From Pseudomonadota bacterium (lineage in GTDB: Bacteria; Pseudomonadota; Gammaproteobacteria; Xanthomonadales; Xanthomonadaceae), in assembly GCA_018242465.1 (NCBI GenBank), contig JAFEBY010000037.1, positions 1 to 47,861 of the forward strand: a stretch of 47,861 nucleotides of DNA, given 5' to 3'. The position numbers and the translations under genes were made by a program. Below the pieces are notes generated by a model. The model saw only the letters and a program-made list of their open reading frames with translations, ran no database searches and was not told the DNA's origin. How positions within the stretch are numbered: the stretch's first letter is position 1; the number at the start of each line of letters is the position of its first letter. This document shows, one piece after another, positions 1 to 10,816 of the stretch.

Positions 1-900
1 GACTACCAGCCCGATCCTTCCGCGCGCAGCCTGCGCAGCGCGCAGTCGTACGCGATCGGCCTGATGTACGACAACCCCAACCCGTATTACGTCATCGCGG
101 TGCAGAACGGCGTGCTGTCGGTCTGTCGCGAGAACGGCTACGGTCTGCAGATCCATCCCTGCGATTCGTCTTCGCCGACGCTCGCCCAGGAACTGATCGG
201 GATCGCACAACACGCGCGCCTCGCCGGCATCGTGCTGGCGCCGCCGATGTCGGAACGCCTCGAGTTGGTAAAAGAACTGGTCGCCCACGGCATCCCGCTG
301 GTGCGCATCGTCTCGGCGACGGCGGATCCGCATGACGGCAGCGCCTGCGTCTTCGTGGACGATCGCGACGCCGCCTACGAAATCACCGAATACCTGATCC
401 AGCTCGGGCACACCCGCATCGGCTTCCTGTGGGGCGGCAAGTCGCACGGCTCGTCATGGGAACGCTACAAGGGATATGAGGATGCATTGCACGATTACGG
501 CATCGCCCTCGACGACGCGCTGGTGATCGAAGGCGACTACTCCTTCGATGACGGTTTCCGTGGTGCGCGACGATTGCTGGCACTGGCCGATCGTCCCACC
601 GCCGTGTTCGGCAGCAACGACGAAATCGCCGCTGGCGTACTCGCGGCCGCGCGCTCGAGCGGCATGAACGTCCCCTACGATTTGTCGATCGCCGGTTTCG
701 AGGACAGTCCGTTCTCGAAACAGAGCTGGCCGGCGCTGACCACCGCGCGCCAGGCGACGGAGGACATCGCGCGCCACGCCGCGCAGCGTTTGCTTCAGGA
801 GTTGCGCGACGACGCGCCGAAGCCGACATCTTCGAACGAAGGCTTCAGCCCGGAACTGGTGGTGCGCGGGTCCACCGCGCCGCCGCGGCCGAAGTCGTAG
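1..900 (+). CDS. LacI-family transcriptional regulator, 5' end cut off (possibly nagR)
   Basis: The reading frame is open from base 1, so the start and the DNA-binding helix-turn-helix lie outside the window. The first visible codons read YQPDPSARSLRS, which is the hinge helix that follows the LacI headpiece. The next 280 or so residues are a periplasmic-binding-protein-like effector domain, with AIGLMYDNPNPYY at its start, GIVLAPP, and the C-terminal signature FGSNDEIAAGVL then DLSIAGFEDSPFS. About 40-60 N-terminal residues are missing compared with a normal 340-residue member. It lies next to nagQ-nagB-nagA. Xanthomonas GlcNAc loci often carry a LacI regulator called NagR, so it may be NagR, but this is inferred from position only. 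The stop at 898-900 is followed 6 bases later by a structured repeat. Confidence 0.9.
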   Translation, partial: DYQPDPSARSLRSAQSYAIGLMYDNPNPYYVIAVQNGVLSVCRENGYGLQIHPCDSSSPTLAQELIGIAQHARLAGIVLAPPMSERLELVKELVAHGIPLVRIVSATADPHDGSACVFVDDRDAAYEITEYLIQLGHTRIGFLWGGKSHGSSWERYKGYEDALHDYGIALDDALVIEGDYSFDDGFRGARRLLALADRPTAVFGSNDEIAAGVLAAARSSGMNVPYDLSIAGFEDSPFSKQSWPALTTARQATEDIARHAAQRLLQELRDDAPKPTSSNEGFSPELVVRGSTAPPRPKS

Positions 901-906
901 CGCAAC

Positions 907-1098
907 AGCATCGCACGCGCTGGCGCGTGTTGTTGCTTCAAGGACAAAATGCGAAAGACTCGCCACCGGCGGCGCCTGTGCGGTTCGTCCGTATGCCGAC
1001 CGTGCGAGCCATGGATGGCGAGCCCGAGCCTCCATGGATGGATTCACGGCGTGTCGGCGATACGGATAACCGCAGCGGGCGCTCAGCCGGGCGATGCT
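907..1098 (+). repeat. Structured 3' intergenic repeat, copy 1 (right hairpin only)
   Basis: This copy starts 6 bases after the lacI-type stop codon and ends just before the 3' end of the convergent HAD gene. Its ends are an 8-bp inverted repeat, AGCATCGC and GCGATGCT. Inside is a linker (TGTTGTTGCT, then GCGAAAG, then CCACCGGCGGCGCC). A long imperfect hairpin follows, with arms at about 972-1000 and 1053-1082, including the perfect pair TCCGTAT/ATACGGA. Its loop holds the shared core: ATGGAT, then CGAGCCTCCATGG, then ATTCACGGCG. Related copies lie at 4886-5068 and 9564-9843. Confidence 0.75.
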
Positions 1099-1107
1099 CT
1101 TCGCGAC

Positions 1108-1785
1108 TTACGGCCGCGAACACACCTCGTCGATGTGATGCAACAGGTCGGCGGGATCGTCGTAGACGCGGAAGCCACCAGCACGCTCCAGTTCCTCGCG
1201 GCCATAGCCGCCGCTGAGCAGGCCGATGCCCAGCGCATTCGCACGCTGCGCCGCCAGCAGGTCCCAGATGCTGTCACCGACCACCAATGCGTTGCGGATA
1301 TCCACGCCCAGACGGTGCGCCGCGGCGAGGAAAAGATCAGGATCAGGCTTGGCGTGCGCCACCATGTCGCGGGTGATCACCGGCACCTTGCCGGGATCGA
1401 CGCCGAGCGCATCGAGATTGACCTTCGCGGTTTCCATGCGCCCACTGGTGGCGATCGCCCAGGCGATGCCGGCTTCGTCGAGATAGCGCAGTAGTTCGAC
1501 CGCGCCCGGCAATGGGCGCACCGCGACCGACTGGCGCACATAGGCGGCGGCATGCAGGCGGCGCAGGCGATCAAGGCGCGCTTCGTCCAGCTCGAGTCCG
1601 GTTTCGCGCAACAGCATGCGCGCGAACAAGCCGCCACTCATGCCGATCTTGCGGTGGATGCGCCAGACCGATAGCGGGATACCTTCGGCGTCGAGCGCTT
1701 CTTTCCACGCCATCACGTGCTGGTAAACGCTGTCGACGAGGGTCCCGTCGAGGTCGAACAGGAAACTGCTACGGACGGAGGGCAT
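1108..1785 (-). CDS. HAD-superfamily hydrolase (phosphatase of the phosphoglycolate phosphatase type)
   Basis: A 225-residue protein with all four HAD motifs. Motif I is DLDGT (Asp11 and Asp13), motif II is the Thr-Ser of IATSGR (about 113), motif III is Lys146 in HAKPDPD, and motif IV is VVGDSIWD (about 168-175). A helical cap lies between motif I and II, as in subfamily IA enzymes such as Gph. The substrate cannot be told from sequence. The frame extends upstream to 1836, but ATG 1785 is chosen because AGGAG sits 5 bases before it and DLDGT then falls near the N-terminus as usual. It is divergent from nagQ. The shared spacer holds two NagQ-type boxes, one overlapping this gene's probable promoter, so a role linked to amino-sugar metabolism is plausible but inferred. 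Confidence 0.88.
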   Translation of the reverse strand: MPSVRSSFLFDLDGTLVDSVYQHVMAWKEALDAEGIPLSVWRIHRKIGMSGGLFARMLLRETGLELDEARLDRLRRLHAAAYVRQSVAVRPLPGAVELLRYLDEAGIAWAIATSGRMETAKVNLDALGVDPGKVPVITRDMVAHAKPDPDLFLAAAHRLGVDIRNALVVGDSIWDLLAAQRANALGIGLLSGGYGREELERAGGFRVYDDPADLLHHIDEVCSRP

Positions 1786-1813
1786 CTGGGCTCCTGTTGG
1801 CGACCACGGCATC

Positions 1814-1842
1814 ATTCTAGCATAAATTAATACCAATCAAAT
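1814..1842 (-). promoter_or_regulatory. Probable promoter of the HAD hydrolase gene
   Basis: On the minus strand TAGAAT (1814-1819) is preceded by TGC, an extended -10 element, with a weak -35 (TTGATT or ATTTGA) 15-17 bases further upstream. The predicted start of transcription is near 1807, giving a leader of about 20 bases that contains the AGGAG ribosome site. The NagQ box at 1829-1846 overlaps the spacer and -35, a position expected to repress. Confidence 0.55.
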
Positions 1843-1846
1843 ACCA
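1829..1846 (-). promoter_or_regulatory. NagQ-type operator, box 1
   Basis: On the minus strand this reads TGGTATT-TGAT-TGGTATT, a perfect direct repeat of TGGTATT with a 4-base spacer. This form is described for the GntR-type regulator NagQ of Xanthomonas GlcNAc regulons, as I recall it. It lies over the probable promoter of the HAD gene. Confidence 0.8.
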
Positions 1847-1868
1847 ATAATCCAAAATACAACTTTAT

Positions 1869-1897
1869 TTGCCATTCTGGTATCTAATTGGTATTGT
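1869..1897 (+). promoter_or_regulatory. Probable nagQ promoter, leaderless
   Basis: TTGCCA (1869-1874) and TATTGT (1892-1897) are separated by 17 bases. Transcription would begin at or next to the A of the nagQ ATG (1904), so the mRNA would be nearly leaderless. This agrees with the lack of a Shine-Dalgarno sequence. NagQ box 2 fills the spacer between the two elements. Confidence 0.5.
1878..1895 (+). promoter_or_regulatory. NagQ-type operator, box 2
   Basis: Reads TGGTATC-TAAT-TGGTATT, one mismatch from the perfect box at 1829-1846 and pointing the opposite way. It lies between the -35 and -10 of the nagQ promoter and ends 8 bases before the ATG. That position predicts tight autorepression of nagQ and its operon. 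Confidence 0.8.
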
Positions 1898-1903
1898 TCG
1901 AAG

Positions 1904-2647
1904 ATGGAGTCTTATCTCGCCGCCGAATTCCAGCGCCAGCGCGACGCCCGTCGTGCGCCGGCGTACCAGCACCTGCGGCGAACCCTGCAGCACGCGATCG
2001 AGAACGGCGAGCTGGAGCCCCGGCAGGCGCTGCCCGGCGAACGCGATCTGGCGAAGCTGCTTGATGTCTCGCGCGTCACCGTGCGCAAGGCGATTTCGGG
2101 ATTGGTTGTCGAAGGCCTGCTGGTGCAGCGCCAGGGCGCCGGCACCTTTGTTGCCGAACGCATCGTCAAATCGTTCTCGCTGCTCACCAGTTTCACCAAC
2201 GACCTGCGTGCGCGCGGCCTCGATCCGCACTCCGAAGTGATCGAACACGGCATCGGCGAAGTCACGCCGGAAGAAGCGATGGCGTTGAACCTGTCGCCCG
2301 GCGCCCTTGTGGTGCGCAGCTACCGATTGCGGACCGCATCCGGGCAGCCGCTGGCGCTCGAACGCACCACGGTGCCGCAATCGGTGCTGCCCGATTCCGC
2401 CGAAATCGGCCTGTCGCTGTACGAAGCCTTCGCCGCGCGCGGCATCCGACCGATGCGCGCATTGCAGCGCCTGCGCGCGATCGCCTTCGATGCCGAGCAG
2501 GCGCGCCTGATGCAGTTGCCGGAAGGCAGCCCGGGATTGTTCATCGAACGCCGCGCCTTCCTCGCCGATGGCCGCGTGGTCGAGTTCACCCGCTCCTTCT
2601 ATCGCGGCGATGCCTACGACTTCGTGGCCGAACTGCACGCCGAATGA
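1904..2647 (+). CDS. nagQ: GntR/HutC-family regulator of GlcNAc genes, NagQ-like
   Basis: A 247-residue regulator. Residues about 15-80 form a winged helix-turn-helix of GntR type (LPGERDLAKLLDVSRVTVRKA, then QRQGAGTFV at the wing). Residues about 95-240 are a UTRA ligand domain (GALVVRSYRLR, FIERRAFLADGRVVEFTRSFYRGD). HutC/NagR-type proteins of this family bind amino-sugar phosphates. It is the first gene of a nagQ-nagB-nagA operon, 31 bases ahead of nagB-II. Two TGGTATT-N4-TGGTATT boxes lie in its upstream spacer, one inside its own promoter, so autoregulation is likely. There is no Shine-Dalgarno sequence before the ATG, consistent with leaderless translation. The name rests on family, operon and boxes together. 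Confidence 0.88.
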   Translation: MESYLAAEFQRQRDARRAPAYQHLRRTLQHAIENGELEPRQALPGERDLAKLLDVSRVTVRKAISGLVVEGLLVQRQGAGTFVAERIVKSFSLLTSFTNDLRARGLDPHSEVIEHGIGEVTPEEAMALNLSPGALVVRSYRLRTASGQPLALERTTVPQSVLPDSAEIGLSLYEAFAARGIRPMRALQRLRAIAFDAEQARLMQLPEGSPGLFIERRAFLADGRVVEFTRSFYRGDAYDFVAELHAE

Positions 2648-2678
2648 TTCCTCTTTCTTCTTTTCAGAATTGACACAA

Positions 2679-3722
2679 ATGCGCCGACTGCCTGATTCCG
2701 ACACCACGAAGATGCACGCCGAGGCCGCGGAAGCCGCTGATGCCGTCGCCCACCAATTCGCCGCAAACGCCGCGACGATCGAAGCGCTGGCTTCGCGCCT
2801 GCGTGCGCAGCCGCCGCGCTTCATCGTCACCTGTGCGCGCGGCAGCTCCGATCACGCCGCGACCTATGGCAAATACCTGTTCGAAACCACGCTCGGGCTC
2901 GTCACCGCGTCGGCATCGCCATCGGTGGGTTCGGTGTACGCGGTGGCGCCGAAACTCGAGGGCGCGCTGTTCATCGCCATCTCGCAATCGGGCAAGAGCC
3001 CCGACTTGCTGCGCAACGCCGAGATCGCCAAGTCCACGGGTGCGATGGTGGTCGCACTGGTCAACGTCGCCGATTCGCCACTGGCCCAACTCGCCGACAC
3101 CGTGATCCCGTTGCACGCCGGCCCGGAAAACAGCGTCGCCGCGACCAAGAGCTATCTGTGCTCGCTGGCGGCATTGCTGCAACTTGCCGCGCACTGGAGT
3201 GATGATGCCGAATTGCTGGCGGCCACCCAGTCGTTGCCCGATGCATTGCGTGATGCATGGCGCGAGGATTGGTCGTCGCTGGTCGGCGGCCTGCGCCTGG
3301 CGCGCAGCCTGTTCGTGATCGGGCGCGGCCTCGGACTCGCCGCCGCGCAGGAAGCCGCGCTCAAGTTCAAGGAAACCTGCGGTCTGCACGCGGAAGCGTT
3401 CTCGTCGGCGGAAGTGAAGCACGGTCCGATGGCGATCGTCGGACCCGATTTCCCGGTGCTGGTGTTCGCGCAGGATGACGACACCGGCGCCAGCACCGCG
3501 GCGGTCGCCGAGGAGTTCCGCACGCGCGGCGCACCGGTGTGGCTGGCGCGACCGGGCGCGGCCGGCGATGGCGTGCTGCCAATGCCGAAATCACCACATC
3601 CCGCCGTCACGCCATTGTTGACGGTGCAGGCGTTCTATCGTGCGGCGAACGCATTGGCGATCGCGCGCGGCCACGATCCCGATGTACCACCCCACCTCAA
3701 CAAGGTGACGGAGACTGTGTGA
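2679..3722 (+). CDS. nagB: Glucosamine-6-phosphate deaminase of the SIS type (NagB-II)
   Basis: A 347-residue protein with two SIS sugar-isomerase domains, resembling the isomerase half of GlmS but lacking its glutaminase half. The phosphosugar-binding loops read CARGSSDHA (about 52) and ISQSGKSPD (about 100), and the second domain has GRGLGLAAAQEAALKFKE and SAEVKHGPM. The C-terminus HLNKVTETV matches the catalytic tail of this family. It should convert GlcN-6-P to fructose-6-P and ammonia. ATG 2679 gives the usual N-terminus with MHAEAAEAADAV at residue 12. No strong ribosome site is seen, and ATG 2712 is an alternative. The gene overlaps nagA in TGATG, so the two are probably translationally coupled. 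NagB-II replaces classical NagB in Xanthomonadales and Shewanella. Confidence 0.88.
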   Translation: MRRLPDSDTTKMHAEAAEAADAVAHQFAANAATIEALASRLRAQPPRFIVTCARGSSDHAATYGKYLFETTLGLVTASASPSVGSVYAVAPKLEGALFIAISQSGKSPDLLRNAEIAKSTGAMVVALVNVADSPLAQLADTVIPLHAGPENSVAATKSYLCSLAALLQLAAHWSDDAELLAATQSLPDALRDAWREDWSSLVGGLRLARSLFVIGRGLGLAAAQEAALKFKETCGLHAEAFSSAEVKHGPMAIVGPDFPVLVFAQDDDTGASTAAVAEEFRTRGAPVWLARPGAAGDGVLPMPKSPHPAVTPLLTVQAFYRAANALAIARGHDPDVPPHLNKVTETV

Positions 3723-4849
3723 TGGCGACGCTCTTTCGCAATGGACAGGTTCTCACCCCGCGCGGCTTCGAACGCGGCCTCGACATGCTGGTCGAAGATG
3801 GACGCATCGTCACCCTCGCACGCGGCCTGCATGTCGCCGCTGCAACGGTGATCGATCTCGACGACGGTTTCCTCGTCCCCGGCTTCATCGACACGCAAGT
3901 CAACGGCGGTGGTGATGTCTTGTTGAACGACACGCCGACGGTCGCCGGAGTGCGTCGCATCGCCGAAGCGCATCGCAAGTTCGGCACCACCGGACTGATG
4001 CCGACGCTGATCAGCGATGACGTGTCGGTGATGCGCGATGCGATCACGGCCGTACACGATGCCATCGAACAAGGCGTGCCCGGCGTGCTCGGCATCCATC
4101 TCGAAGGCCCGTGGTTGGCCGAAGCGCGCAAGGGCGTGCATGATCCGCACAAGTTCCACACCCCGGATTCCTCGGAACTCGATCTGGTTGCCTCGCTTGG
4201 CAACGGCGTCACCATGGTCACGCTGGCGCCGGAACGCTTCGCGCCGGAAACGTTGCATGCACTGGCCGAACGTGGCGTTCTCCTCTGCGCCGGGCACACT
4301 GCGGCGACCTACGAACAGCTCCGCGATGCCTTCGCCGCCGGCGTCCGCGGCGTCACCCACCTGTTCAACGCGATGGCGCCGATGGGCAGTCGTGCACCGG
4401 GCGGTGTCGGCGCGGCGATCGACGATCACGACAGCTGGTGCGGGATCATCGCCGACGGCTATCACGTCGACGACGCGCCGCTGCGCATCGCCATCGCGGC
4501 GAAACCGCGCGGCAAGATGATGCTGGTCACCGATGCGATGCCGCCGGTGGGCGGTGAACGCGAGGCGTTCACCCTCTACGGCATCCCGATGACTTGCCGC
4601 GACGGCAAGTGCACCACCGCCGAAGGCGGACTCGCAGGCTCGGCGCTCGACATGGCCAGCGCCGTGCGCAACACCGTGCAGCGCCTCGGCCTGCCGCTGG
4701 ACGAGGCCTGCCGCATGGCGTCGCAATATCCGGCGGAATTCCTGCGGCTGGGCGACGAGCTGGGCAAGATCGCGCCAGGCTATCGCGCCGATCTGGTATG
4801 GCTGGACCGCGATCTGCAGGTCAAAGGGACGTGGATCGGCGGGCGCTAA
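3722..4849 (+). CDS. nagA: N-acetylglucosamine-6-phosphate deacetylase
   Basis: A 375-residue amidohydrolase-fold enzyme that removes the acetyl group of GlcNAc-6-P in the cytoplasm, feeding NagB-II. Visible family motifs, in order, are PGFIDTQVNGGG (about 58-69), the metal-binding Glu in GIHLEGPW (about 130), the metal His in CAGHTAATY and in GVTHLFNAM, substrate-binding ADGYHVDDAP, and the catalytic Asp in LVTDAMPP (about 270). The tail IAPGYRADLVWLD is typical of amidohydrolases. The ATG at 3722 shares its first base with the nagB stop codon. The length matches the family norm. No intrinsic terminator follows. The gene faces parA across structured repeat copy 2. Confidence 0.95.
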   Translation: MATLFRNGQVLTPRGFERGLDMLVEDGRIVTLARGLHVAAATVIDLDDGFLVPGFIDTQVNGGGDVLLNDTPTVAGVRRIAEAHRKFGTTGLMPTLISDDVSVMRDAITAVHDAIEQGVPGVLGIHLEGPWLAEARKGVHDPHKFHTPDSSELDLVASLGNGVTMVTLAPERFAPETLHALAERGVLLCAGHTAATYEQLRDAFAAGVRGVTHLFNAMAPMGSRAPGGVGAAIDDHDSWCGIIADGYHVDDAPLRIAIAAKPRGKMMLVTDAMPPVGGEREAFTLYGIPMTCRDGKCTTAEGGLAGSALDMASAVRNTVQRLGLPLDEACRMASQYPAEFLRLGDELGKIAPGYRADLVWLDRDLQVKGTWIGGR

Positions 4850-4885
4850 CGCACATGCACTGGCTTGACGAGTTCACACGCCAAA

Positions 4886-5068
4886 AGCATCGCCCGGCGC
4901 CGCCGGTGGTGCCTTTCACGCCTTTGGAAAGCCACAACACGCGCGCTCAGTGGATCGACGGTCCGGTAAGCGGGCGTTGCGCGTCATGGATGACGCGCAC
5001 GAGCCTACATGGCCGTATTCACGGCGTCCCGCGCATCGGACTGGCGACCCACTGAGACAGCGCGTGCC
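4886..5068 (-). repeat. Structured 3' intergenic repeat, copy 2 (left hairpin only)
   Basis: Read on the minus strand, this copy begins directly after the parA stop codon with GGCACGCGCTG and ends in GGGCGATGCT, the same end as copy 1. It carries the left hairpin (4946-5056), closed by the perfect 8-bp arms CTCAGTGG and CCACTGAG and continued by GTCCGGT/ATCGGAC. A 7-bp hairpin sits inside it (4979-4998) with loop ATGGAT on the plus strand. The linker GCGTGTTGTGGCT and CCACCGGCGGCGCC is kept. The right hairpin of copies 1 and 3 is cleanly missing between GGCGCC and GGGCGATGCT. Confidence 0.75.
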
Positions 5069-5701
5069 TCAACGCGCGCGATTCAACCACTGCAACAACG
5101 GTGCCCAATCCGCCTGGTGTTCGCGGATCTGCGCCGAGTTGTAGTCGAAGAGGCTGCGGCCGAGGCCTGCCATCATCACGTAAGCCTGGCTGTCGCGTAG
5201 CTGGCCGACCACCGGGATCGACCAGCCCTGCATCACCTCGACCGCCTGCTGCGAGGCATTGGTCCACGGCCGCAGGCGGTTGGCGACGACGCCGACAGGC
5301 ACCTTGCCCTTCTTGATCTGCGGGTGGCCGGCAAGGTCGTTGAGGAAATGCACGGTCGCTTCGATGTCGAGCGCAGACGGGCCGATCGGCACCACCACGG
5401 CGTCGGCGGTTTCGAGGAATTCATCGAGCAGGTCGCGGTGGGAACCGGCCGGGGTGTCGATCACCACCCGCTGGGTATCGTCGGGAATGCGCTTGTTCCA
5501 CTGCTTGCGGGTGCCGTCGACCGGCAACACCGCGTGGTCGAGATGGGCGCGGCGTTCGGCCCAGCGCATCCCGGAATGCTGCGGATCGGCGTCGATCAGC
5601 ACGGCATGCCTGCCGTGCACGGCCGCGTGGGCGGCCAGGTTCGTTGCGAGTGTCGTCTTGCCGACGCCACCCTTGGAGCTTGCCACCAGTACGGTCTTCA
5701 T
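5069..5701 (-). CDS. Orphan ParA/MinD-family ATPase
   Basis: A 210-residue cytoplasmic P-loop ATPase. The deviant Walker [10 protein letters not shown], is at residues 9-17 with the signature lysine. Walker A' ([13 protein letters not shown]) is at about 36-48 and the switch region (VVIDTPAG) at about 100. It is short, without the N-terminal DNA-binding extension of plasmid ParA. No ParB gene or parS-like cluster is near, so chromosome segregation proper is unlikely. Such solo ParA proteins often position cell-surface or cytosolic complexes, but the cargo is not visible here. It is divergent from the indolepyruvate ferredoxin oxidoreductase gene (168-base spacer). ATG 5701 starts directly at the conserved [12 protein letters not shown]. 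Confidence 0.85.
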
Positions 5702-5869
5702 CCACCAACACCTGTCATGGGCTCTGGCCGGAGCTTAGCATCGGCCCCGCCGAGCAGGCTTGGCAGGCCGCCTCCGGAGCGTCGAAAGGTCGCAGGCTGG
5801 TAAAATTGCGTTTTCCATCACGCCCGGCCCCGCCTCACGGCGCGCCCGGGCCTGCGCGAGGCCGCACGC

Positions 5870-8800
5870 ATGACCAGCACCGCAGAGCTTTCCTCCCCCG
5901 AATCCGCCAAAGGCACCCTGACCCACGGCGTGAACGACCGCGACTACACGCTGGACGACAAATACGTCCGTACCGAGGGCCGCATCTACCTGTCGGGGGT
6001 CCAGGCACTGGTGCGCCTGCCGATGATGCAGCACCTGCGCGATGTCGCCGCCGGCCTCAACACTGCCGGCTTCATCAGCGGGTATCGCGGTTCGCCGCTG
6101 GGTGGTTTCGATCTCGAGTTGTGGCGCGCCAGCAAATATCTCGCGAAGAACGACATTCGCTTCCAGCCCGGCCTCAACGAGGATCTCGGCGCGACGATGG
6201 TCTGGGGCACCCAGCAAACCAACCTGTTCCCGGGCGCCAAGGTCGATGGCGTGTTCGGCATGTGGTACGGCAAGGGTCCGGGCGTCGATCGCTGCGGCGA
6301 CGTGTTCAAGCACGCCAACGCCGCCGGCACCTCCAAGCATGGCGGCGTGCTGGCGCTGGCCGCCGACGACCACGCCTGCCGCTCGTCCACGTTGCCGCAT
6401 GGCAGCGAGCATGAATTCGTCAGCGCGATGATGCCGGTGCTCAATCCGGCCGGCGTGCAGGACATCCTCGAAATGGGCCTGCTCGGCTTCGCGATGTCGC
6501 GCTTCACCGGGCGCTGGGTCGGTTTCAAGACCATCGCCGAGACGGTGGAATCGTCGGCGTCGGTCGACGTCAATCCGTTCGCGCAGCAGATCCTCCTGCC
6601 GGGCGACGACGAATTCGAAATGCCGCCGGGCGGCTTGAATATCCGCTGGCCGGATCCGCCGCTGGACCAGGAAATGCGCCTGCATCGCTACGCGGTCAAG
6701 GCCGCGCAGGCGTTCGCGCGGGTCAACAAGCTTGATCGCGTCGTCATCGATTCATCGAACGCGCGCCTTGGCATCGTCACCACCGGCAAGAGCTATCTCG
6801 ACGTGCTGCAGGCGCTGGAATACCTCGGACTGGATACCCGCGCCTGCGCCGATCTCGGCATCCGCGTCTACAAGGTGGCGATGACATGGCCGCTGGAGCC
6901 GCAAGGCATCCGTGCCTTCGCGCGCGGCTTGCAGGACATCCTCGTGGTCGAGGAGAAGCACAGCTTCATCGAGTCGCAGATGAAGGAACTGTTCTACAAC
7001 TTCGATGGCCAGCGTCCCAGCATCGTCGGTAAGTTCGACGAATCCGGCGAATGGATCCTGCCCTCCACCGGCGAACTCACGCCTGCCACCATCGCCGGCG
7101 TGATCGGCAAGCGCTTGCAGCGCTTCCACGACTCCGAACAAATCCGCAACGTGCTGGCATGGATGGAAGGCAAGGAAGGCGAGCTCGCCTTGCCGCGCGC
7201 CAACTTCCCGCGCGTGCCGCACTACTGCTCTGGTTGCCCGCACAACACCTCGACCAAAGTCCCGGAAGGTTCGCGCGCATCCGCCGGCATCGGCTGTCAC
7301 TACATGGTGACGTGGATGGACCGCAATACCGACACCTTCACCCACATGGGCGGCGAAGGCGTGACGTGGGCGGGCCAGGCCAATTTCACCGACACCCCGC
7401 ACATCTTCCAGAACCTCGGCGACGGCACCTATTTCCACAGCGGTTCGCTGGCGATCCGCCAATCGATCGCGGCCGGCGTCAACATCACCTACAAGATCCT
7501 CTACAACGACGCGGTGGCGATGACTGGCGGCCAGCCCGTCGATGGCACGCTCACCGTGCCGCAAATCGCGCACCAGATGCTGGCGGAAGGCGTGCACACC
7601 ATCGCGCTGGTCTCCGACGACATCACCAAGTGGTCGCGCCAACGCTATCTGTTCCCGAAGGAAGTCGAGTTCCACGATCGTCGCCAACTCGAAGCCGTGC
7701 AGGAACAGCTGCGCACGGTCAAGGGCGTGTCAGTGCTGATCTATGACCAAACCTGCGCCACCGAGAAGCGCCGTCGTCGCAAGCGCGGCAAGATGGTCGA
7801 CCCCAACAAGCGCGTCGTCATCAACTCGCTGGTCTGCGAAGGCTGCGGCGACTGCGGTGAAAAATCGTTCTGCGTCTCGGTGCTGCCCAAGGAAACCGAA
7901 TTCGGCCGCAAGCGCGACATCGACCAATCGAACTGCAACAAGGACTTCAGCTGCGTCGAAGGCTTCTGCCCGAGCTTCGTCACCGTCGAAGGCGGCCAGT
8001 TGAAGAAGGGCAAGCGCGCCAATGTCGCGCATCGCCTCGAAGACCTGCCGGCGCCGCAGTTCGCGACCGACCTCGACAAGCCGTGGAACATCCTGATCAC
8101 CGGCGTCGGCGGCACCGGCGTCGTCACCATTGGTGCGCTGCTCGGCATGGCCGGACACCTCGAAGCCAAGGGCGCGACGGTGCTCGACCAGACCGGCCTT
8201 GCCCAGAAGGGCGGCGCGGTCACCACGCATATCCGCATCGCGCGCACGCCCGACGATCTCCATGCCGTGCGTATTGCGGCAGGCGAGGCCGACCTCGTGC
8301 TCGGCTGCGACATGGTGGTGGTCAACGACTATTGGGCGTTGTCCAAGATCCGGGCTGGCCGCACATCGGTGGTACTGAACACCTACGAAGCAATGCCGGG
8401 CACCTTCACCACCCGCCCCGACATGCAGTTCCCGGCCGCCGACATCGTTGCCGCCGTGCGCACCGCGCTCGATGGCGCAGCGCCGCTGACCATCGATGCC
8501 ACCGAGCTCGCCAACGCCCTGATGGGCGACGCGATCGCATCCAATCTCTTCATCCTCGGCTATGCCTGGCAGAAGGGCCTGGTGCCGATCTCGTTCGACG
8601 CATTGATGCGCGCGGTCGAACTGAACGGCGCCGCGGTGACGATGAACAAGACTGCGTTCGCCTGGGGCCGCCTCGCCGCGGTCGACATGCCGGCCGTGAT
8701 CGAAGCTGCCGGCATCGTCCGCAATGCACCGACCAGGGCCGAAGCGACGCCGCACAAGTTGCAGATGCTGGCCGCAACCGCCAACGAAGGCCTGGAATCG

Positions 8801-9562
8801 GGGCTGTCACCGATCGCGACCCATGATGAAAGCGAAATCCGTCGCGTGCCTGCGCACTTCGACGAAGGCGTCGCCTTCCTTCCCCTGGATGATGCCCGCT
8901 TGTCGCGTTCGCTCGATGAAGTGATCTCGCGTCGTGTCGGCTTCCTCGTCGACTACCAAGACAAGGCTTACGCCGAGCACTACCGCAGCTTCGTCAACAA
9001 CGTCCGCGATTTTGAACATCGCCATGCGCCGGGGTCCACCGTGCTGACCGAGGCCGTCGCCCGCTATCTGTTCAAGCTGATGGCCTACAAAGACGAATAC
9101 GAAGTCGCCCGCCTCTACACCAGCGGTGATTTCCAGCGCCGCATCGCCCAGCAGTTCGAAGGCGACGTCACCCTGAAATTCCATCTCGCGCCGCCGCTGT
9201 TCGCGAAGAAGGACGCCAAGGGTCGCCTGATCAAGAAGCAGTACGGCCCATGGATGATGAAGGCGTTCAAGCAGCTGGCGAAACTGAAACCGCTGCGTGG
9301 CGGGACCTTCGACGTCTTCGGCTATACCGAAGAACGCAAGATGGAACGCAAGCTGATCGCGGACTACCGAGCGACCATCGAGACGCTGCTGAAGACGCTC
9401 GATGCCGGCAACGTCGGCCTCGCCGCCGAAATCGCCAGCGTGCCGGAACACATCCGCGGCTACGGCCACGTCAAGGAAGCGAACTTCGCCAAGGCCAAGG
9501 CGCGCGAAGCGGAATTGCTGAAGGAATGGAACAACCCGTTGCGGGTGGTGCAGGTGGCGTAA
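5870..9562 (+). CDS. Indolepyruvate ferredoxin oxidoreductase, fused alpha-gamma type
   Basis: A 1230-residue single-chain 2-oxoacid:ferredoxin oxidoreductase of the aerobic type that joins the IorA- and IorB-like parts. The N-terminal third is the pyrimidine-binding region (GYRGSPLGGFDLELW, about 67-81). The middle has the TPP-binding core (CSGCPHNTS, GIGCHYMVTW, then GGEGVTWAGQ at about 500). A cysteine-rich Fe-S segment follows at about 660-705 (CEGCGDCGEKSFC, then NCNKDFSCVEGFCPS). The gamma domain starts at GVGGTGVVTIGALLG, about 745. It should oxidatively decarboxylate aryl pyruvates to aryl-acyl-CoA in aromatic amino-acid breakdown. The length matches fused proteobacterial homologues. 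A TAAAAT at 5801-5806 may be a -10 element. The stop is followed one base later by structured repeat copy 3. Confidence 0.93.
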   Translation: MTSTAELSSPESAKGTLTHGVNDRDYTLDDKYVRTEGRIYLSGVQALVRLPMMQHLRDVAAGLNTAGFISGYRGSPLGGFDLELWRASKYLAKNDIRFQPGLNEDLGATMVWGTQQTNLFPGAKVDGVFGMWYGKGPGVDRCGDVFKHANAAGTSKHGGVLALAADDHACRSSTLPHGSEHEFVSAMMPVLNPAGVQDILEMGLLGFAMSRFTGRWVGFKTIAETVESSASVDVNPFAQQILLPGDDEFEMPPGGLNIRWPDPPLDQEMRLHRYAVKAAQAFARVNKLDRVVIDSSNARLGIVTTGKSYLDVLQALEYLGLDTRACADLGIRVYKVAMTWPLEPQGIRAFARGLQDILVVEEKHSFIESQMKELFYNFDGQRPSIVGKFDESGEWILPSTGELTPATIAGVIGKRLQRFHDSEQIRNVLAWMEGKEGELALPRANFPRVPHYCSGCPHNTSTKVPEGSRASAGIGCHYMVTWMDRNTDTFTHMGGEGVTWAGQANFTDTPHIFQNLGDGTYFHSGSLAIRQSIAAGVNITYKILYNDAVAMTGGQPVDGTLTVPQIAHQMLAEGVHTIALVSDDITKWSRQRYLFPKEVEFHDRRQLEAVQEQLRTVKGVSVLIYDQTCATEKRRRRKRGKMVDPNKRVVINSLVCEGCGDCGEKSFCVSVLPKETEFGRKRDIDQSNCNKDFSCVEGFCPSFVTVEGGQLKKGKRANVAHRLEDLPAPQFATDLDKPWNILITGVGGTGVVTIGALLGMAGHLEAKGATVLDQTGLAQKGGAVTTHIRIARTPDDLHAVRIAAGEADLVLGCDMVVVNDYWALSKIRAGRTSVVLNTYEAMPGTFTTRPDMQFPAADIVAAVRTALDGAAPLTIDATELANALMGDAIASNLFILGYAWQKGLVPISFDALMRAVELNGAAVTMNKTAFAWGRLAAVDMPAVIEAAGIVRNAPTRAEATPHKLQMLAATANEGLESGLSPIATHDESEIRRVPAHFDEGVAFLPLDDARLSRSLDEVISRRVGFLVDYQDKAYAEHYRSFVNNVRDFEHRHAPGSTVLTEAVARYLFKLMAYKDEYEVARLYTSGDFQRRIAQQFEGDVTLKFHLAPPLFAKKDAKGRLIKKQYGPWMMKAFKQLAKLKPLRGGTFDVFGYTEERKMERKLIADYRATIETLLKTLDAGNVGLAAEIASVPEHIRGYGHVKEANFAKAKAREAELLKEWNNPLRVVQVA

Positions 9563-9563
9563 C

Positions 9564-9843
9564 AGCATCGCACGCGCTGGCTTGGCGGGAGGCCAGCTCC
9601 GGTGCGTGGGCCGCCGCAAGTACGTCCATGTAGGCTCGTGCGCCGCATCCATGCGGCGCAACGCCCACGCGCCGGACTGGCGCACCCGCCGCCGCGCGCG
9701 TGTTGTTGCTCTCTGAGAGAGAAGCGAAAAGTCCGCCACCGTCAGCGCCTATGCGGTTCGTCTGCAGAGCCGACCGTATGGACGTATTCACGGCGTGTCG
9801 GCGGCTGCAGACAACCGCGATAGGCGCTCAGCCGGGCAATGCT
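9564..9843 (+). repeat. Structured 3' intergenic repeat, copy 3 (both hairpins)
   Basis: This copy fills most of the 323-base gap between the oxidoreductase and the convergent L,D-transpeptidase gene. It starts one base after the stop codon with AGCATCGCACGCGCTGG, as copy 1, and ends in GGGCAATGCT. The left hairpin (9584-9690) has arms CCGGTGCGTGGG and CCCACGCGCCGG and an inner 7-bp stem with loop ATCCAT (9640-9659). The right hairpin (9745-9827) has the perfect pair TCTGCAG/CTGCAGA where copy 1 has TCCGTAT/ATACGGA. No coding sequence or other signal was seen in the gap. Confidence 0.75.
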
Positions 9844-9885
9844 TTCGCGAAGATGCCAAGCCGGCGCGTGCCTTTAGATGCTCGA

Positions 9886-10725
9886 TTACGGTGCAGCAAC
9901 CGCCACGCGTTGTGCGCCACCACCCCGCAACGCACGCGCGGCGGCCACGATCTGCTGGGCGCTGCGACCATCACAGGCGAAGGACTGCCCGTGCTGCAGC
10001 CACGCGGCATCGTTGGCGTAGGAGAACAGCAATTGCTTGCCCTTCATCGTGTCGATCACCCGGCGTGCGATGCCCTGGCTCAACGCCGGGCAGCCATGGC
10101 TGCGGCCGATGCGACCCTTGCTTGCGGCCATTTCCGGATTCACGTACCACGCGCCGTGCATGACGATCGCGCGTGATCGCGCATTGTCGTTGAAGCCGTG
10201 CTCGACACCATCGAGCTTGAGCGAATAGCCATTGTTGCCGATATAAGTCTCGGCCGTCAGGAACAGCCCGAGACTGGTCTGGTGGCTGTTGTCCCGGTTG
10301 GAGAAACGCGTCGCGTAGTTGTCGCCGCTGCCTTGGCCGTGGGCCACCAGTTCGCGGAACAGCAACTGGTCACGGGCGACGTCGAACACCCACAGGCGCT
10401 TGTCGGTCGACGGCCTCGAGTAATCGATCACTGCCAGTTTGGCGTCCTGGTCGACCTCGCCGCTGCGGACCGCGCAGTTGCGTGCTTCCAGCGCCAGCGC
10501 CAGCACGCCGGGATCGGCTTCCGGGGCCAGCATCTCCAGGCGCGCCAGGGTGGCGGCATTGGGGTCGAGCTGGGTGCTTGATGTCTCGGGCTGCGGCTGG
10601 ATCGAGCGCTCCACCCGCGGCACGACAACGGATGACGACGCGGTCGTTCCATGGTCAGGCACAGTGGAGCAGCTCACCAACGTCGAAGCTGCCAGCGAGA
10701 TGAAGACCGCGTGAAGTTTCCTCAT
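9886..10725 (-). CDS. Lipoprotein with murein L,D-transpeptidase-like catalytic domain (PF13645 type)
   Basis: A 279-residue protein starting MRKLHAVFISLAAS, with lipobox LVSC (Cys19), so it is probably a lipid-anchored envelope protein. Residues about 100-260 match the YkuD-related catalytic family: KLAVIDYSRPSTDKRLWVFD, FLTAETYIGNNGYSLKLDG, an IVMHGAWYV histidine and the SHGCPALS motif with the nucleophilic cysteine. It should act on peptidoglycan stem peptides. The frame stays open to 10797, but ATG 10725 gives the signal peptide at the very N-terminus and is preferred. It lies 91 bases downstream of a second, unrelated L,D-transpeptidase on the same strand, so the pair may be co-transcribed. 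The exact reaction, cross-linking or hydrolysis, cannot be read from the sequence. Confidence 0.88.
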   Translation of the reverse strand: MRKLHAVFISLAASTLVSCSTVPDHGTTASSSVVVPRVERSIQPQPETSSTQLDPNAATLARLEMLAPEADPGVLALALEARNCAVRSGEVDQDAKLAVIDYSRPSTDKRLWVFDVARDQLLFRELVAHGQGSGDNYATRFSNRDNSHQTSLGLFLTAETYIGNNGYSLKLDGVEHGFNDNARSRAIVMHGAWYVNPEMAASKGRIGRSHGCPALSQGIARRVIDTMKGKQLLFSYANDAAWLQHGQSFACDGRSAQQIVAAARALRGGGAQRVAVAAP

Positions 10726-10816
10726 GTGCGTGACAATACACGCACAAGCTCTTGATTTGTCTGAATGCGTTACCCGGAACGACTTCCAGACCCGCATTCA
10801 TGCGTTTGGAAACGGC

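Follow-up and report, generated by a model that had tools for sequence, protein, structure and literature searches.

What occupies the ends of three genes in the 47,861-bp stretch of a Xanthomonadaceae draft genome that is analysed here (contig JAFEBY010000037.1 of assembly GCA_018242465.1; the window)? A sequence-only reading of the stretch had described three related elements, each near a stop codon and between convergent genes, and all three are found at those places. They belong to one multi-copy, structured, strand-specific family that occurs across Gammaproteobacteria, mostly in 3' regions; hardly any copy lies inside a gene, and divergent promoters are avoided. The window copies, 183-280 bp long, are a new composite variant of this known but scattered and under-recognised family. 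As for their role, we tentatively favour a non-coding repeat, similar to a miniature inverted-repeat transposable element (MITE), that sits at terminators and carries a paired putative decoy for the regulator RsmA/CsrA, a possibility suggested by the sequences of the loops.

Seen by eye, the copies are mosaics in which an outer frame (AGCATCGC...GCGATGCT(TTT)) is combined with a start module (GCACGCGCTGG) and two arms, left and right. Each arm holds a core of ~64 nt, the left one being the reverse complement of the right, as had been noted before. The two small hairpins of the core are carried by a long outer stem. In order, the core comprises the outer stem, hairpin 1 with the loop ATGGAT, GAGCC, hairpin 2 with the loop ATGGAY, a 5-nt internal loop, GGC and again the outer stem. 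The stem of hairpin 2 occurs as TAC/GTA, CCC/GGG or TCC/GGA, and the internal loop reads TTCAC or CTTGC. Solitary cores also exist, capping long hairpins whose stems are unrelated (as at loci L037, L038, L042, L052 and L055). Some cores have a second palindrome of ~80-100 bp, of the GGGTGAGG... type, nested in their first hairpin (seen by eye at L028 3030-3503, L043 3001-3430, L044 2999-3498, L019 3001-3436 and L050 2999-3215). At L012, near position 3001 on the minus strand, the shared end of one element is directly followed by many tandem copies of GACC. Over 117 stem families, the 5' arm of the outer stem is G/T-rich (1451 of 2398 paired positions) and the 3' arm C/A-rich.

The paired positions of the core change together. 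For 31 distinct cores from the window's own genome, covariation is 0.370, compared to 0.127 after shuffling and at most 0.080 in slid versions. None of 500 shuffles reaches 0.370, and 10 of the 20 pairs have changed on both sides. To extend the comparison, we used a pattern of the second half of the core, which occurs in at least 118 stretches of named genomes, and a covariance model of the core (R1) together with a broader model (R2). At an expectation value (E) of 0.01 or below, R1 finds 127 cores in the first 80 named loci and 70 in the other 38. The 127 cores, 121 of them distinct, show two-sided changes in 18 of 20 pairs and a covariation of 0.535, against 0.157 when shuffled and no more than 0.082 when slid. 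The outer stems beyond the core are unrelated between families and yet pair over ~20-32 positions. Selection for a folded single strand with fixed loops is supported by these values. Selection on structure had been proposed from stem exchanges between the window copies (TCCGTAT/ATACGGA against TCTGCAG/CTGCAGA, and GCGCCGC against GCGCGTC), which are present as described when inspected by eye. The elements and their parts are as follows.

907..1098, plus strand: element copy 1, with the right module alone, between AGCATCGC and GCGATGCT.
907-914, plus strand: first bases of copy 1, AGCATCGC, located in the sequence.
996..1059, plus strand: core of copy 1, 76.0 bits with R1, loops ATGGAT (1011-1016) and ATGGAT (1034-1039).
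1089..1098, plus strand: shared end GGGCGATGCT of copy 1, followed by CTT, a weak T-tract.
4886..5068, minus strand: element copy 2, left module only, reading from 5068 down to 4886.
4971..5034, plus strand: core of copy 2, 87.3 bits with R1, loops ATGGAT (4986-4991) and ATGGCC (5009-5014).
9564..9843, plus strand: element copy 3, both modules.
9604..9667, minus strand: left core of copy 3, 85.5 bits with R1, minus-strand loops ATGGAT (9652-9647) and ATGGAC (9629-9624).
9771..9800, plus strand: right core remnant of copy 3, located in the sequence, with ATGGAC (9778-9783) as its sole remaining loop.

Several motif details required correction, while the elements themselves stand. The linker is GTGTTGTGGCT in copy 2 and CCACCGTCAGCGCC in copy 3, and copy 3 ends in GGGCAATGCT. 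In copy 3, the first hairpin and GAGCC of the right core have been lost, and R1 does not match the remnant at E ≤ 0.01. Copy 2 has ATGGCC as its second loop, rather than ATGGAC or ATGGAT. Folded as RNA, copies 1, 2 and 3 reach z scores of -5.0, -4.1 and -7.5, and for each copy none of 200 shuffles folds as well. Copy 1 starts 6 nt past the TAG stop (898-900) of a gene for LacI-type sugar-binding domains, which is truncated by the window start. Copy 2 begins directly past the stop of a minus-strand ParA-like gene (5069-5701, ending at 5069); the strand of its core that carries the ANGGAN loops is the plus strand, opposite to the orientation of the element. Copy 3 starts 1 nt past the TAA stop (9560-9562) of a gene for a 1230-aa POR/DUF6537 protein and faces a minus-strand YkuD gene (9886-10797). 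By our own gene calls, all three copies lie between convergent genes.

The position of the window copies is typical for their genome, a draft of 2.52 Mb in 139 contigs that is 87% complete. Searches with copy 1 (86 matches, E ≤ 10) and copy 3 (92 matches, E ≤ 1) merge into 51 clusters, the three of the window included, after 47 stretches were fetched. R1 detects 59 cores in this genome at E ≤ 0.01, at least one of which (C129:27804) lies outside these stretches. Genes were called with a home-made codon-score caller and are not curated. Of 49 clusters with a neighbour upstream, 39 come after a same-strand stop, at distances of -8 to 49 nt (median 5), and in 33 of the 49 the gene on the far side also has its 3' end facing the element. 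Among the 51 clusters (47 with both neighbours), 27 lie between convergent genes, compared to 5 of 133 element-free gene pairs from the same loci. This baseline is biased, like the others below, since only loci with an element were sampled. The placement at 3' ends that had been claimed from three copies is supported in this genome. We located the shared end in 25 of 51 clusters; with counting begun at its last T, three or more of five bases are T in all 25, and four or more in 15. Near one standalone copy, a SAM riboswitch is located at L037 4065-4188 on the plus strand.

The junction that holds copy 3 can be compared between relatives. Two congeners, G248 and G046, are 95% and 87% identical to the window genome over the last 300 bases of the gene upstream of copy 3; at the junction they have no element and carry what appears by eye to be an ordinary intrinsic terminator. 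A third, G259, has a different composite that retains the right core, and G106 and G279 have other DNA. Thus, at this one site, the element of copy 3 stands where relatives have a terminator, a situation that gain and loss would leave alike.

One explanation for such positions is a bidirectional transcription terminator or 3'-end stabiliser, in which the long hairpin matters and the loops do not. The stops before 39 of 49 clusters, the convergent pairs, the T-tract kept at every detected shared end and the terminators of the two congeners all agree with it. Excerpts of the literature, in which form the papers below are also cited, describe Yersiniae palindromic repeats as mRNA stability determinants (PMC2267715) and state that the Yersinia repeat YPAL might influence transcript stability (PMC2229807). 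This explanation leaves the constant ANGGAN loop and its C-G closing pair, amid stems that change freely, without a reason. In addition, the stem is rarely followed by T in other genomes: a T-tract past the stem on the ANGGAN strand was seen in 2 of 192 elements, and an A-rich stretch before it in 14 of 192. A terminator scan of window positions 800-10000 gave two hits, below the shuffle mean of 6.8; both are within copy 1 and none is at a shared end. We regard a pure terminator or stabiliser as somewhat unlikely.

The family extends far beyond the genus. The second-half-core pattern matches in Xanthomonas, Stenotrophomonas, Arenimonas, Marinobacter, Microbulbifer, Rheinheimera and others, among them Methylotuvimicrobium, Saccharospirillum, Sodalis and Yersinia similis; the titles of some stretches say just Proteobacteria. 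Searches with R2 matched 72 of 369 Gammaproteobacteria genomes, in 64 of 272 genera. In a phylum-wide draw, R2 matched 29 of 398 genomes, all of them Gammaproteobacteria; the share of this draw outside the class is not given. A family-level survey with R1 matched 95 of 297 genomes, in 16 of 54 genera. These large surveys score 13-17 candidates per genome, and absences in them are therefore soft. A model-only search supplied 60 further loci from 13 genomes, one of which (M. buryatense, as L120) is already in the named set.

Copy numbers vary widely. At E ≤ 0.001, 21 entries representing 20 distinct genomes contain from 9 (G641) and 19 (G865) up to at least 150 cores. The highest value is reached by two Xanthomonas, M. 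buryatense and one Saccharospirillum. S. maltophilia SJTL3 has 134 cores, a Marinobacter 111, Y. similis 83 and the congener G106 77. Within the window's genus, no cores were detected in 7 of 17 genomes, the window genome being among the 17, with strict filters that lose weak matches. No match was found in a phage collection searched with copy 3 or in a plasmid collection searched with one standalone copy. One contig of a viral collection carries the core pattern (L182 6229-6254, minus strand) and possibly represents the host flank of a provirus. Tandem arrays occur as well: six cores on one strand at ~227 bp spacing (G837:C1:94437-95636), and four same-strand cores in ~180-bp steps in a Saccharophagus draft genome (L070 3130-3730). 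One Xanthomonas locus contains the Xanthomonas small RNA (sRNA) sX9 (L071 437-512, minus strand).

Elements in other genomes avoid genes. Clusters inside called genes number 0 of 93 in the first 80 loci, 1 of 79 in the 60 extra loci and 0 of 47 in the other 38. Convergent pairs hold 28 of 68 clusters in the first 80 loci, compared to 28 of 262 baseline pairs, and 15 of 42 in the other 38, compared to 16 of 147. Divergent pairs are depleted in both sets (4 of 68 against 75 of 262; 1 of 42 against 36 of 147). The gene-matched orientation that the sequence-only reading had seen in the three copies is not supported as a general rule outside the genus. Single cores between co-directional genes are sense in 11 cases and antisense in 14 in the first 80 loci, 16 and 34 in the 60 extra, and 3 and 9 in the other 38. 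Random placement and orientation, or uncompensated stem changes, had been named as signs of an ordinary decaying repeat. On this test the outcome is mixed: placement proved to be non-random and the stems compensate, but outside the genus the sense of the core is not fixed. Where a cluster has several cores, the plain '-+' layout is frequent: it accounts for 15 of 25 such clusters in the first 80 loci, for 4 of 7 in the 60 extra and for 13 of 18 in the other 38. Outward-facing '-+' pairs 100-300 bp apart have the layout of copy 3, for example at L104 69-362, and similar pairs are seen at L107, L085, L128 and L119.

Which strand folds can be read from mismatches in the outer stems, as a G-U mismatch on one strand is A-C on the other. 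Counting one member per stem family, we used 240 of 275 cores for 117 families and 297 of 345 for 146, the remainder being dropped for short flanks or stems. On the ANGGAN strand, the 117 families have 147 G-U and 23 A-C mismatches, and 73 families are richer in G-U, compared to 8 in A-C (p = 3e-14). The excess is seen both where the core is sense to co-directional neighbours (32 G-U against 5 A-C) and where it is antisense (50 against 7). The 38 added loci contribute 29 new families with 37 G-U and 5 A-C (18 families against 0). Combined, the 146 families have 184 G-U and 28 A-C, with 91 G-U-rich, 8 A-C-rich and 47 tied. Therefore, the ANGGAN strand is the folding strand, independent of gene direction.

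A further explanation, in which template-switch repair keeps decaying palindromes perfect and structure is not selected, would predict no such asymmetry. Quasi-palindrome correction makes long perfect stems of unrelated sequence, and in this respect the outer stems are what it would leave behind. It would also erase bulges, whereas a bulge, the 5-nt internal loop and the loops of both hairpins are retained. Finally, the G-A mismatches cluster at one stem height: 39 of 68 A-G mismatches in the 117 families are at outward stem positions 7-10, and 11 more at position 6. We consider this explanation very improbable.

How does the family relate to known ones? At gathering thresholds, Rfam gave no match in the window. 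In a lower-threshold scan, Ysr224 (RF02770) matched copies 1, 2 and 3 on the opposite strand with 29.3, 31.1 and 17.7 bits, the cut-off being 70; it exceeds the cut-off in one Yersinia and one Sodalis locus. The Ysr224 model spans the core that the window copies carry. A 2022 survey places Ysr224 among the annotated sRNAs of highest prevalence (PMC9029176).

TwoAYGGAY (RF01731) reaches at best 22.2 bits in the window genome, below its gathering cut-off of 43. Among 22 entries representing 21 distinct genomes it reaches the cut-off in two, in one of them on an R2 core. Matches overlie R2 cores on the same strand at L223 (over the cut-off), L225 and L227, while the best match, L222, is not an R2 core. 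Several S. maltophilia matches also coincide with cores (C1:1876777-1876894 and the R2 core 1876803-1876865, for instance, both minus). As described (PMC2864571), TwoAYGGAY has two AYGGAY-loop hairpins on an outer stem, as in the cores here. It was predicted in 2014 to bind CsrA, and a tandem G-A was reported for its outer stem (PMC4333381), which the A-G mismatches at stem positions 7-10 resemble. In the accessible parts of these sources TwoAYGGAY is not presented as a repeat, whereas here 9 to at least 150 copies occur per genome. The window cores differ further in that they are also built into inverted composite units.

Another published counterpart is YPAL, also called RU-2. Its printed sequence (PMC2759123) contains the core and, by eye, is nearly letter for letter that of the Y. 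similis locus L114, which matches both R1 and R2. Like the family described here, YPAL is intergenic and palindromic. It is reported to be mobile, with target duplications of 3-26 bp and dyad-symmetric targets (PMC2229807), and filled and empty sites are known for it; the copy 3 junction, without the element in G248 and G046, is one such site here. The excerpts describe YPAL/RU-2 as ~168 bp long and from Yersinia and Erwinia. The window copies have different stems, an additional inverted second core and a different outer frame. The earlier remark that no described family with this layout was known is not supported: the core lies within YPAL/RU-2, is matched by Ysr224 and overlaps TwoAYGGAY in other genomes. 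The union of YPAL, Ysr224 and TwoAYGGAY, or a class-wide repeat nature, was not found in the literature searched, which included few subscription papers.

Abundant intergenic palindromes, often in inverted pairs, are also typical of REP, REPIN and BIME elements. Unlike these, the family has no fixed GTAG/CGTC head; in the 31 own-genome cores, GGGG and GGAG also occur in place of the GTAG of ATGTAGGC. The Y1 transposase (PF01797) was searched for and not found in the window genome (G000, 87% complete), in G106 (100% complete, with 77 cores), in G865 or in G1044. The REP/RAYT mechanism is therefore unavailable there, and we rejected it for this genus.

A possible function is suggested by the loops. 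A high-affinity Csr/Rsm site is an ANGGAX hexaloop placed directly on a stem and closed by C-G, then U-A (PMC4005645). We counted loops of distinct cores only, from structural alignments. In the window's genome, ANGGAN is present in 39 of 39 six-nucleotide first loops and in 52 of 53 second loops. The first 80 named loci have it in 94 of 96 six-nucleotide first and 119 of 120 second loops, and the other 38 in 49 of 53 and 60 of 64, with second-loop counts in both named sets biased by the scan pattern. The 60 model-found loci are free of this bias, but their alignment was fitted to R2; here, ANGGAN is found in 67 of 69 six-nucleotide first loops and 72 of 73 six-nucleotide second loops. In these loci, loop positions 2 and 6 vary and positions 1, 3, 4 and 5 are nearly fixed. 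A C-G pair closes the first loop in 73 of 77 and the second in 75 of 77 distinct model-found cores. CsrA is encoded in all 15 genomes tested, including that of the window.

ANGGAN-type loops on C-G-closed stems are a feature that the family shares with the Csr/Rsm decoys (CsrB, RsmX/Y/Z and RsmW), and Rfam clan CL00106 holds both TwoAYGGAY and RsmW. Csr/Rsm decoy RNAs are few, dedicated sRNAs. The elements here are instead scattered repeats that each have a single pair of sites and show no promoter signal.

A number of observations weigh against an RsmA/CsrA decoy. First loops of other lengths are present in 14 of 53 own-genome cores, in 25 of 121 and 12 of 65 cores of the first 80 and other 38 named loci, and in 8 of 77 model-found cores. 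The pair below the C-G closing pair varies and is mostly not the reported U-A. In the window itself, the second loop of copy 2 departs from ANGGAN. CsrA is also encoded in four of four tested congeners without detected cores, so its presence alone decides nothing. In the 60 extra loci, convergent pairs are not significantly enriched (11 of 70 against 13 of 126, p = 0.36). Pooled over the three sets, single cores are sense in 30 and antisense in 57 cases; a decoy in 3' untranslated regions should favour sense, and this lean therefore counts against it. With one core per stem family from the first 80 and the 60 extra loci, the numbers are 18 and 30 (p = 0.11). Promoters show no excess ahead of the ANGGAN strand (p = 0.55 over 180 elements; strong promoters 6 against 2), and for lack of this signal a self-contained sRNA with its own promoter was rejected. 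The rarity of T-tracts past the stem and the modelling of Ysr224 on the ATCC-loop strand, opposite to ANGGAN, point in the same direction. Finally, other mismatches are as skewed as G-U: A-G exceeds C-T by 86 to 11, and G-G exceeds C-C by 28 to 3. The asymmetry therefore shows one folding strand and is no proof of RNA.

The main rival, a serious one that we rate as somewhat less probable than the decoy, is that RNA plays no part at all. The ANGGAN strand would then fold as single-stranded DNA and be recognised by some transposase, the '-+' pairs being the mobile form, as in REPINs. The equal skew of G-T, G-A and G-G mismatches, the antisense lean, the predominance of '-+' pairs among multi-core clusters and the target duplications at dyad-symmetric sites reported for YPAL (PMC2229807) would all be in line with a DNA element. 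The same holds for the swings in copy number within the genus, from 77 cores in G106 to none detected under strict filters. At least one Y1 transposase, counted as presence in the genome, exists in 12 of the 16 entries searched. The four genomes without a Y1 transposase, in which other transposase classes were not searched, speak against it. So does the loop, in which the free and fixed positions equal those of the Csr/Rsm rule; a transposase would have no reason to share them.

A repeat at terminators with a putative decoy could combine these features. The element may spread by settling at terminator hairpins or inside them, where little harm would come from an interruption, and then take over as the transcript end. 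Where the ANGGAN strand is transcribed, the two loops could hold one RsmA/CsrA dimer. Each copy might protect or mark its own 3' end, and all copies jointly could form a dispersed RsmA/CsrA decoy. Taken further, a selfish class-wide repeat, with tens to more than 150 paired CsrA sites behind the genes of a single genome, would set the level of free regulator, and gain or loss of copies would shift the regulon between close species; this extension we judge unlikely, though worth stating.

If the family is as described, an Rfam candidate RNA, a Yersinia MITE and a Yersinia 'sRNA' are one Gammaproteobacteria repeat family, and some annotated 'sRNAs' become repeats. The mismatch mirror count offers a simple test for the folding strand of any palindromic repeat. 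A decoy function would connect mobile DNA to the Csr/Rsm system in a way that can be tested, and the family would explain what occupies many of the convergent gene ends in the window's genome.

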